DNA from: Clostridia bacterium
GTDB taxonomy: Bacteria > Bacillota > Clostridia > Oscillospirales > Acutalibacteraceae
NCBI GenBank assembly: GCA_024404095.1
Contig: JAKSQO010000002.1
Coordinates: 1-64,000, forward strand
Direction: 5' to 3'
Length of the DNA: 64,000 bases
Under the pieces are notes generated by a model, which was not told the origin of the DNA, ran no database searches, and saw nothing but the letters and a program-made list of their open reading frames with translations. This document shows positions 30,968 through 49,786 of the stretch, piece by piece. The stretch's first letter is position 1. Each line of letters begins with the position of its first letter. The position numbers and the translations under genes were made by a program.

Positions 30968-31004
30968 GTTACATCCGAAAGTCATATTTGTAACTATTTG
31001 TAAC
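30968..31004 (+). repeat. TGTAAC repeat cluster upstream of a strong promoter
   Basis: GTTACA at 30968-30973 and two direct TGTAAC copies at 30989-30994 and 30999-31004 (4-nt gap). Direct TGTAA-type repeats resemble WalR (YycF) boxes that control YabE/YocH-like wall genes, but the canonical gap is 5, not 4. They lie about 125 bp upstream of the promoter at 31127-31155. Confidence 0.35.
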
Positions 31005-31126
31005 TTTTTAGGTTTTGCACAAAAGACAAAGGCTTATATACGCATTATATTCTTGTTTAGAAATATAATGTGCTTTATAAAGTACTATATGTGTGCAAAG
31101 TTCACAAAAATTTGCATTTTGAAAAT

Positions 31127-31155
31127 TTGACAAATTTGTAATTTGTAAATATAAT
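31127..31155 (+). promoter_or_regulatory. Perfect consensus promoter
   Basis: TTGACA (31127-31132), exactly 17 nt, TATAAT (31150-31155), AT-rich upstream DNA. No gene follows in the next 1.8 kb on this strand; transcription would run through a structured leader and then into the IS110 element. It probably served the YabE-like 3D gene at 32984 before the insertion. Confidence 0.85.
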
Positions 31156-31161
31156 AAGCGA

Positions 31162-31310
31162 CGTTGGCTTTGGGAATAGTATGTTTCCCCACAGATTCTT
31201 AATTACGTTCAGCCGACACAGCGGTGAAAATACTTTTACCGACTGTTAAGAAAAGACCTGCTAATAAAAGTCAACAGGAAAAATAAATAATTTTTTGCGA
31301 GTAAAAAAGG
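31162..31310 (+). ncRNA. Structured leader or small RNA of unknown class
   Basis: Directly after the consensus promoter the RNA folds into consecutive elements: arms 31163-31169/31211-31217 (GTTGGCT with AGCCGAC) enclosing 31172-31176/31185-31189 (GGGAA/TTCCC); arms 31218-31221/31243-31246 (ACAG/CTGT) enclosing GGT/ACC and AAAA/TTTT; then CCTG/CAGG at 31257-31260/31275-31278. I could not match it to c-di-AMP, cobalamin, T-box or other riboswitches I know. The AT-rich tail to 31478 contains further hairpins. Confidence 0.5.
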
Positions 31311-31424
31311 CAACACTCAACAAGACCGTAACAAAAGTAAATTTTGAAACAGTCGTATGCAGATAAGCGGACGCACAGGAGTGCTTCGCTTAGAAATATT
31401 TTACTGTTTGTGCGTTGTCAACAT

Positions 31425-31460
31425 ACAAAAAGTTCAGAATGGTGATTCCGAACTTTTTGT
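31425..31460. terminator. Long hairpin at the 3' end of the IS110 transposase gene
   Basis: Arms ACAAAAAGTTC and GAACTTTTTGT with an inner GAAT/ATTC stem; T runs are built into both strands. It could end transposase transcription on the minus strand and also block plus-strand transcription from the 31127 promoter. A second hairpin (AACTCGC/GCGAGTT, 31462-31479) overlaps the transposase stop. Confidence 0.7.
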
Positions 31461-31478
31461 AAACTCGCCTAAGCGAGT

Positions 31479-32702
31479 TCAGGTATTGACAATTTCAGCT
31501 CGTTCTGAATCGAGATTTTCTTTAACCTTGGCATAATAAATTCTCAGAAATTTGTTTGCACCGGCAATCATGTAAACTTTGAAAGGCTTACCTTCAGAAC
31601 GCTTTTTATCAATAAATTGAAAAACAGGTTCATCAACAGGGCTTTTAATAAGAATTGTTTTCATTACCTGAAACAGATTCTTCCTCAAATCACCTGAGCC
31701 TCGTTTGGATATACTGCGTGATGAAACATCGACAGTGCCTGATTGATATGGAGGAGCATCAATTCCTGCGAATCCGATAAGTGCTTTCTTGTTTTTGAAA
31801 CGGTATATATCGCCGATTTCAGCAATAAGCTGCGGAGCAAGTACCGAACCGACACCGTACATTCCGATAACGGTGTTGTATTCAGGTAATTGTTTTGCAA
31901 GCCTGTCCATTTCATTCCTGACGGCAACAATGTTTTCGTTTATTGAATTCAACTGATTTATACAAGTTACAATCAAAATCTTTGTTGATTCATTTTTAGG
32001 AAGCAAACCTACGTTACCGCAAGATTCTGCATATATATCAAACGCTTTATCTTTACTGAAATTGTAGCCGTTACGATGACACCATTTTTCATAACGCTTA
32101 ATAAATTCATTGAGAGATAAGCCGCAAACACACTCACAGTGCCAGAATTTCATTCCGAAATCAAGCCATTTTACACTGCCGTCAGGTCGCTGAGGTGATG
32201 TAAACAGCTTTTGAATATCGGGAAATGTCTGGTCAAACATGGCGATAAGGTTGTTTGTAACCATAACTTTTTGCTTCGTAAGTTGATTGTATTGACGGTT
32301 GAATATCTTCAATGATTTACGAATGTCATTTTCAGGCACATATTCAATCAGGTCAAGCCAGTGCTCAAGACCCCAGTTTGCAATTTTAACAGCGTCTTTT
32401 TTATCTGTTTTGGCTTTTCTGACAGTGATATTTGAATCGTAATTAGCTATAAGAATAGGGTTGATTACGGTAACGAATATACCTGATTCATGGAGAAAAT
32501 CGGCTATAGGGTCATTGTAATGGCCGGTGCTTTCCATAATCACCTTAGTCTCACTCGGAAGACTTTTAAGAAAACTTGCCAGTTCTCCGAGTTCTCTTTC
32601 GGTGTGAGCGACATCATGCGGTTCAGCAACTACAACACCGAGAGGCTGCATAACAGCAACCGTGCTTTTTCCTTTGGAAACATCAATTCCTACTGCATTC
32701 AT
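31479..32702 (-). CDS. IS110-family transposase (DEDD recombinase)
   Basis: The 407-residue protein has the N-terminal RuvC-like DEDD domain: GIDVSKGKS (Asp), IMESTGHY (Glu) and KTDKKDA (two Asp), and the C-terminal Transposase_20 domain with GFAGIDAPPYQSG and SKRGSGDLR carrying the catalytic Ser. Both halves look intact and uninterrupted, so it may be active. I chose the ATG at 32702 (MNAVGIDVSK), preceded by ACAGGAG. IS110 enzymes are guided by a bridge RNA from the non-coding end, and a candidate lies directly upstream. Confidence 0.93.
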   Translation of the reverse strand: MNAVGIDVSKGKSTVAVMQPLGVVVAEPHDVAHTERELGELASFLKSLPSETKVIMESTGHYNDPIADFLHESGIFVTVINPILIANYDSNITVRKAKTDKKDAVKIANWGLEHWLDLIEYVPENDIRKSLKIFNRQYNQLTKQKVMVTNNLIAMFDQTFPDIQKLFTSPQRPDGSVKWLDFGMKFWHCECVCGLSLNEFIKRYEKWCHRNGYNFSKDKAFDIYAESCGNVGLLPKNESTKILIVTCINQLNSINENIVAVRNEMDRLAKQLPEYNTVIGMYGVGSVLAPQLIAEIGDIYRFKNKKALIGFAGIDAPPYQSGTVDVSSRSISKRGSGDLRKNLFQVMKTILIKSPVDEPVFQFIDKKRSEGKPFKVYMIAGANKFLRIYYAKVKENLDSERAEIVNT

Positions 32703-32911
32703 TGGCAAAACTCCTGTCATAAAGTATTGTTTACGAATTGGTGACCATCTTTTACCCATTCCGATTCAATCTGTTGGGTGACACGGGCGTTGCAGCCCTA
32801 CCTGCTGAAACCGAACGCTGTAATGGAAGGATGGCTGACTGTCTTTTCTACGGACGTAACAGTCCAAGGAGTAATACGTCAGACCATTTCGCCCTTCCAT
32901 TATAGCTTAGG
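32703..32911 (-). ncRNA. Candidate IS110 bridge RNA region
   Basis: The roughly 209 nt between the transposase ATG and the putative left end form strong stem-loops. One spans 32821-32902: 10-bp arms (32821-32830/32893-32902), a 5-nt internal loop, then 9 bp with one bulged base (32831-32839/32878-32887), and an apical hairpin (GGAC/GTCC at 32852-32855/32862-32865). A second spans 32787-32818 (GCGTT/AACGC enclosing CAGC/GCTG). Position, length and bulged two-lobe architecture match bridge RNAs described for IS621-like elements. Function is inferred. Confidence 0.6.
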
Positions 32912-32923
32912 AATAAGAACGAA

Positions 32924-32950
32924 GTGAGCATACCCGGCTGGCATGCTCAC
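32924..32950. repeat. Perfect 8-bp inverted repeat next to the IS left end
   Basis: GTGAGCAT, 11-nt loop, ATGCTCAC. It lies between the IS-associated stem-loops and the ribosome site of the 3D/G5 gene. It could be part of the IS end, the insertion target or a regulatory hairpin of the downstream gene. Confidence 0.55.
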
Positions 32951-32983
32951 CACGGCAAATATATTGTAACAGGAGTTATTCCA

Positions 32984-34258
32984 ATGGAAACAATAAGAAA
33001 TGCAGGCAAAAAGCTTGCAAAGTCAAAGTTCAAGGCAATAATGATTGCTCTGATTACTATGTTCTGCATCGCTACAATCTATGCGACAGCATCAAACACA
33101 AACACGGTAATCATCAATATGGACGGCATTGAAACAAGAGTTACAACTCTTAAGACTGATGCGGATGAAATCATCAAGCAGGCCGGCATAGAGCTTACTG
33201 ATAATGATATTGTTGATCTTTCAGGCTTTGAGAGCGGCTCTGATTCGGTAATCAAAATCAGCAAGGCTTATAATGTAACAGTTACTGATGACGGAAAGTC
33301 AGAGACATTCCTTGCAAACGGTACAGTTGCCGAGGCACTCAGCAAGCACGGTGTTATAATCAACGAAGGTGATGAGCTTAACTGTGACACTGATTCCGTA
33401 ATCCACGAGGGCATGGAGATTGTTATTTCACGTGCATTCCCCGTAATGATTACAGCAGACGGCAAGGTTGTTACTGTCAAGATGGCAGGCGGCACAGTCG
33501 GCGATGCACTTGATAAGGCTGTTATTACAGTTGCGGATGATGATGAAATTTCTTCACCGCTTGACACAGTTCTTAATTCAAGCACTTCAATCGTGATTTC
33601 CCGAGTAACCTATAAGGAAAGAAAAGTTAAGGAAGCAGTTCCTTTCAAGACTGAAAAGAAGAACAGCACCGCACTTTACAAGGGCCAGACAAAGGTTGAG
33701 GTAAAGGGCGTAAAGGGTGAAAAGGAAGTAACCTATAAGGATAAGTATGTTGACGGCAAGCTTCAGGGCTCAACCGCTGTAAACACGGTTATCACCAAGG
33801 CTGCGGTTAACGAAGTTAAGCTTATCGGCACAAAGAAAAAGGCGGCTGTTGTTGCTGCTTCTGCAAGCACATCGGGCGCAAAGCTTGCAAACGGAGTTAA
33901 GACAATTTCACGTCTTACACCTCCCTCAAGCCTTACTCTTAACGGCAAGGTTCCGACCTCATATAAGAGAAAGATTACAGGTACAGCTTCCGCTTACTCA
34001 GGCGGCGGACTTACAGCAACAGGCAAGAGCGTAATGCCCGGTTATATCGCTGTTAATCCGAGACAGATTCCTTACCATACAAAGATGTGGATTGTATCCA
34101 ACGACGGCAGATACGTTTACGGTTATGCTTCAGCTGAGGATACAGGCGGATTTGTAAATTGGTCAGGAAGCCGTTCAACACTCTGTGACCTTTATATGTC
34201 TTCTGAATCACAGTGCAGCGCATTCGGCAGAAGAAGCGTTACAATATATATTCTCTAA
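32984..34258 (+). CDS. YabE-like cell-wall protein with DUF348, G5 and 3D domains
   Basis: The 424-residue protein starts at the ATG at 32984 with AGGAG 9 nt upstream. It has an N-terminal membrane/signal segment (residues 15-35), three DUF348 repeats (about 38-195, e.g. INMDGIETRVTTLKTDADEI), a G5-type domain (about 200-280) and a C-terminal 3D domain with GTASAYSGGGLTATG, AVNPRQIP and EDTGGFVNW ending in DLYMSS. Members remodel peptidoglycan (lytic transglycosylase-like, MltA fold). The natural promoter appears to lie 1.8 kb upstream beyond the IS110 copy, so expression may be altered. Confidence 0.9.
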   Translation: METIRNAGKKLAKSKFKAIMIALITMFCIATIYATASNTNTVIINMDGIETRVTTLKTDADEIIKQAGIELTDNDIVDLSGFESGSDSVIKISKAYNVTVTDDGKSETFLANGTVAEALSKHGVIINEGDELNCDTDSVIHEGMEIVISRAFPVMITADGKVVTVKMAGGTVGDALDKAVITVADDDEISSPLDTVLNSSTSIVISRVTYKERKVKEAVPFKTEKKNSTALYKGQTKVEVKGVKGEKEVTYKDKYVDGKLQGSTAVNTVITKAAVNEVKLIGTKKKAAVVAASASTSGAKLANGVKTISRLTPPSSLTLNGKVPTSYKRKITGTASAYSGGGLTATGKSVMPGYIAVNPRQIPYHTKMWIVSNDGRYVYGYASAEDTGGFVNWSGSRSTLCDLYMSSESQCSAFGRRSVTIYIL

Positions 34259-49676: not shown

Positions 49677-49786
49677 TTCAGAGTAGACGGTTAAGCGTTG
49701 CGCATCTGCGTGCAGTATCGGCAGGACGGGGAGTTGTCTGTCGGGCGAAAAGGTTTTCTGCGATTTAGCCGTCGCATCCCGCTGAA
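49677..49786 (+). promoter_or_regulatory. Tetrahydrofolate (THF) riboswitch
   Basis: The conserved THF-I elements are readable in order: AGTAGACGG (near 49682), GCGTT, CGGGGAGTTG, GGGCGAAAA, then CCGTCGCATCCCGCTG (49769-49784). The terminal stem P1 closes with TTCAG (49677-49681) and CTGAA (49782-49786). It sits 60 nt ahead of the folate transporter gene folT and probably controls its translation or termination in response to reduced folates. Confidence 0.9.

Follow-up and report, generated by a model that had tools for sequence, protein, structure and literature searches.

The element, its recombinase and its ends

The DNA analyzed here, referred to as the window, is a 64,000-nucleotide stretch of a Clostridia bacterium genome (assembly GCA_024404095.1, contig JAKSQO010000002.1, positions 1 to 64,000). 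Between a host promoter and the gene for a G5/3D-domain protein, both on the plus strand, it carries a minus-strand recombinase gene (31479..32702) with a structured non-coding region upstream. It is nearly certain that the recombinase gene and the structured region belong to a complete insertion sequence of the IS110 group, and that the structured left end of this element is the bridge RNA naming its insertion site. Guide RNAs of IS110-type jumping genes have been known since 2024, and the element is a new member of this already known kind, an IS110-group element with a bridge RNA.

The recombinase coding sequence specifies 407 amino acids, in which both PF01548 and PF02371 are found, and scores 198.8 bits against NF033542 ('IS110 family RNA-guided transposase', NCBIfam; cut-off 140). 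Alignment with the active site of IS621 (8wt6) reveals all five catalytic residues of a DEDD plus serine enzyme (D7, E57, D100, D103, and S321). An earlier interpretation of the region made before any database search (hereafter the sequence-only reading) had called the transposase intact, and on each of these counts it is.

Because the element is present as a single copy in the 2.87-Mb assembly, its ends were determined by comparison. In relatives from genomes G372 (three copies), G145, and G019 the left end begins directly after ...ACTC-CT and the right end terminates in ...TTGACTTTTATTAGCAGGT-CT, which places the CT cores of the window element at 32971..32972 (left end) and 31254..31255 (right end), both on the minus strand; with one core included, the element measures 1717 bp (31254..32970, minus strand). 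The exact uninterrupted site of a relative's insertion was found in genome G024, with flanks 100% identical over 323 and 265 bp and a single CT, compared with two in the relative's element copy. Insertion is scarless around a CT core common to target and element. A 45-nt inverted repeat (32684-32728/32958-33002) was not accepted as the terminal repeat of the element, as it reflects two similar ribosome-binding sites with their start codons. Within the right end, 3' of the recombinase gene, lies a palindrome (ACAAAAAGTTC...GAACTTTTTGT, 31424-31461) that is likely a two-way terminator.

The bridge RNA and its guides

The bridge RNA is placed at about 32761..32956 (minus strand), its 5' end being derived from a -10 box and its 3' end from structure only. 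The segment 32761-32960 folds at -71.1 kcal/mol (z -3.80), a stability equaled by 0 of 200 shuffles, into a 5' stem-loop (32923..32951), and two stems each interrupted by an internal loop, a long one (32817..32906) and a second one (about 32762..32813), all on the minus strand. By fold and by consensus structure in relatives, the latter two correspond to the target-binding and donor-binding loops with their stems. The sequence-only reading had put the RNA at 32703-32911; the predicted RNA does overlap that interval, but the interval excludes the 5' stem-loop, takes in about 58 nt made up of spacer and ribosome-binding site ahead of the ATG, and folds with a z of only -1.92 (8 of 200 shuffles equally stable). 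The 82-nt bulged stem-loop that it described at 32821-32902 is real and is the target-binding loop with its stem, while its second stem (32787-32818) exists but is smaller than the donor-binding structure proved to be.

Conservation of the structure was measured on 47 closer distinct relatives with the named structure, in place of a broader set of 15 in which the misalignment of two subgroups hid the lower stem from RNAalifold. Standard pairs were kept at 96.4% across the 47, and pairing fell to 34-44% when partners were slid, a control that keeps relatedness; doubly changed pairs numbered 8, compared with 2.3 in shuffles, a control that ignores relatedness. Helix 2 includes a single pair (columns 20 and 77) that is restricted to the window's own subgroup.

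The sequence-only reading had suggested looking for complementarity between the loops and the target and donor DNA, and in the window copy all four guides display it (coordinates on the minus strand). The left target guide ATTACTCCT (32867..32875) matches the left target and core, ATAACTCCT, at eight of nine positions, and the right target guide AGAAAAG (32843..32849) pairs at 7/7 with CTTTTCT, which comprises the core and right target. The targets themselves, ATAACTC on the left (32973..32979, within a Shine-Dalgarno region) and TTTCT on the right (31249..31253), are host DNA, recognized both by comparison with genus relatives and by their match to the guides. Taken together, the guides spell ATTACTCCTTTTCT and the occupied 14-bp site reads ATAACTCCTTTTCT, a match of 13/14; the best other site in the window scores 12, and only two sites elsewhere in the whole genome score 13, one of which is a Shine-Dalgarno region before another start codon. 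On the donor side, the left donor guide AGCAGGT (32800..32806) has the same sequence as the stretch preceding the core at the right end, and AACAG (32771..32775), the right donor guide, is complementary to CTGTT at the left end. Directly after the right target guide come the bases AC (32841..32842), which can pair with the GT of the left donor at the 'handshake' position described for IS621 (PMC11208158).

Joining the element ends would also create a promoter, TTGACT-17-TACAAT, with its -35 box in the right end (31269..31274, minus strand) and its -10 box in the left end (32963..32968, minus strand), an arrangement reported for IS621 (PMC11208160). In the integrated copy, TACAAT has just a weak upstream partner, TTTCCA, and transcription of the bridge RNA probably requires the circle. 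The ends, core, guides, guide-target covariation, and target class are read here from sequence; circle formation, transcription, RNA binding, and strand exchange are modeled on IS621. On that model, the ends joined in an excised circle would build the promoter from which the bridge RNA is transcribed; the target-binding loop would pair with both strands of the 14-bp site around the CT core and the donor-binding loop with the joined ends of the circle, and the DEDD/serine recombinase would then exchange strands at CT.

Covariation in relatives and competing explanations

Scanning genome contigs with the protein of a relative fetched 79 loci, the window protein as query having given none. Together with elements found earlier, ends and guides were extracted by fixed rules for 77 elements, seven that failed the rules being left out; the guide-target score is lowered by a few accepted elements whose ends are doubtful or truncated (L160, L182, and L183). 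With each guide pair counted once, 37 elements with both ends entered the covariation test. Their guides matched their own targets at 9.78 of 12 non-core positions, as against 5.46 +/- 0.26 of 12 for swapped targets (maximum 6.65 in 20,000 trials), and the own target ranked first for 27 of the 37. The guide columns are variable (left 1.27 bits, right 1.58 bits), compared with 0.07-0.57 bits for the scaffold. The right donor guide matches the end of its own element in all 72 from which it could be extracted, occurring as four types (AATAG, AACAG, AGGAG, and AGCAA), although most elements share one type by descent. At the handshake position, AC accompanies donors ending in GT, and TC those ending in GA, AA, or GG. 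Donor guides and handshake bases change together with element ends. The proposal that this region encodes the bridge RNA of an IS110-family element is thus supported both by guides that pair with target and donor and by their variation with targets among relatives.

Three other explanations were weighed. The hairpins could be ordinary untranslated-region structure with no guide role, acting as a terminator or in translational control of the transposase; the RNA region does directly precede the recombinase gene, and its 5' stem-loop also scores as terminator-like. Such structure would leave unexplained, however, why the loop sequences track flanking host DNA from element to element and why donor guides track element ends, and this explanation is very improbable. 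Membership of the IS1111 group instead of the IS110 group is likewise highly unlikely for this element. Its right end is fairly long (223 nt non-coding), but the RNA is encoded upstream of the gene, within the left end, and not downstream as in IS1111-type elements; perfect inverted repeats between the ends (80 nt of each compared) reach no more than 5 bp, short of the 7-17 bp of IS1111-type subterminal repeats; and the bottom-strand match comes first, which is the IS110 order in PMC11187229. It is on RNA position, repeats, and guide order that the element is assigned to the IS110 group. Finally, the notion that guide-target matches reflect chance or shared descent, all targets being similar Shine-Dalgarno sequences, has a negligible probability and as a full explanation is refuted: swapped targets already match to the extent given above because most sites contain CTCC, but own targets exceed all 20,000 swaps, the signal sits in variable positions (right-target positions match at 0.76-0.97, with 0.27-0.58 expected), and non-Shine-Dalgarno sites are matched too (L153, GTCAAGACT, 9/9; L162, TTTGCTTCT, 9/9).

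Certain observations nevertheless count against an IS110 element with a bridge RNA. One position of the left target guide is mismatched at the occupied site, and the RNA, the circle, and transposition are predictions from sequence. Neither an Rfam search of the window nor a permissive search of the locus matched a bridge RNA family, so no ready-made family model was usable. Common ancestry means that counts from the relatives are not fully independent, a dependence that counting distinct guide pairs once lessens but does not abolish. In addition, the left guide of one subgroup (listed as G299, G255, L187, L188, and G366, and also as L014, L015, L187, L188, and L013) fits poorly, at 4-5/9, despite a perfect 7/7 right guide; in L014, L015, L187, L188, and L013 the left guide may pair in a different register.

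Target class, the clade and known systems

The element sits between a host promoter (TTGACA-17-TATAAT, 31127..31155, plus strand), which agrees with the consensus at 12/12 positions, and the start of the G5/3D-domain gene, a cell-wall gene (32984..34258, plus strand; DUF348, G5, and 3D domains), at the Shine-Dalgarno region of that gene. In genus relatives the promoter is conserved and contiguous with the gene, the leader running uninterrupted from promoter to AAAGGAG to ATG; with identity no higher than about 70%, these genes back the junction in the window without being enough on their own to establish it. The coding sequence is intact and AGGAG still precedes its ATG, but the promoter has been cut off from it by the element and normal transcription of the gene has likely been lost. 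A 444-amino acid open reading frame (ORF) from 32924, which extends the host reading frame backward into the element, was discarded in favor of the start at 32984 found by comparison with genus relatives. Upstream of the promoter, a direct repeat (TTTGTAAC...TTTGTAAC, about 30985-31030, plus strand) kept in all aligned genus relatives looks like a regulator binding site, possibly for a WalR-like regulator. Elsewhere in the window, a tetrahydrofolate (THF) riboswitch (49677-49786, plus strand) is the sole Rfam match.

The target class was surveyed at 59 distinct sites with enough flank, with a minimum ORF length of 50 codons (40 for those truncated at a contig end). At 42 of these an opposite-strand ORF starts 6-21 nt from the core, most commonly at 14 nt, compared with 28% of random flank positions, and 53 of the 59 carry a Shine-Dalgarno pattern, a fraction that reflects a permissive pattern and automatic ORF calls. 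Most target sites are Shine-Dalgarno sequences, with the element antisense to the gene. The sites of L152, L153, L162, L163, L171, and L174 do not resemble a Shine-Dalgarno sequence ahead of a start codon but still agree fully or almost fully with the guides of the elements occupying them (the right guide of L174 at 7/7); these would represent natural retargeting within the clade. In a sister clade with a similar RNA (L016, L017, and L023; genomes G391, G431, and G251), elements occupy transcription terminators, immediately behind strong hairpins with trailing T runs, and the left guide of the G391 element, GGCTGTTCTT, matches its site. A further set (L111-L121, L144, and L148) combines a 100% identical recombinase with the same or nearly the same flanks across many genera, including Claveliimonas, Anaerotignum, Blautia, Ruminococcus, and Flavonifractor, suggesting that these elements spread along with some larger mobile element.

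We lean, if only slightly, toward reading these elements as a gut-Clostridia IS110 clade specialized on translation-initiation signals, in which the scaffold stays almost constant and the guides change rapidly within 'Shine-Dalgarno space', each insertion severs the link between a gene and its promoter but keeps AGGAG ahead of the start codon, and the sister clade does likewise with transcription terminators. As a record left by nature of which guides go with which targets, the family is unusually clear. Its dozens of recombinases, which combine an almost uniform RNA scaffold with many guides of known target, furnish a table of real guide-target rules, tolerated mismatches included, for a group distant from IS621; the natural renewal of guides becomes testable within one clade. 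Both the 7-nt right guide and the common Shine-Dalgarno target class could be informative for programmable-recombinase work and could show how such elements sever genes from promoters in gut bacteria.

A description of this clade was not found in the literature, coverage of which was mostly without subscription papers and is therefore weak evidence of absence, and for Shine-Dalgarno targeting only IS900 was found. In PMC8141618, which cites Doran 1997, IS900 of Mycobacterium avium paratuberculosis is described as inserting at translation-initiation signals (consensus CATGNNNNNNTCTCCTT); it is a published precedent for the target type. It shares the IS110 family and the type of target with the window element but has an actinobacterial host. 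The seekRNA of ISEc11 and ISEc21 (IS1111 and IS110 elements) likewise derives from a non-coding region and matches both target strands, as proposed for the window element, and natural reprogramming between relatives has been described for ISEc11 and ISXne4; in IS1111 elements, however, the RNA lies downstream of the gene with the guide order reversed (PMC11187229). A further close parallel is IS621 (PMC11208160, PMC11208158), in which the architecture and the pairing of all four guides are those of the window element, and which shares its 9-nt left target guide, CT core, joined-end promoter, handshake bases, and catalytic residues. The two recombinases are only distantly related (phmmer E 6e-15) and differ in length (326 amino acids in IS621, 407 here), the right target guide matches 7 nt here compared with 4 in IS621, and the target is a Shine-Dalgarno sequence here and a REP element in IS621.
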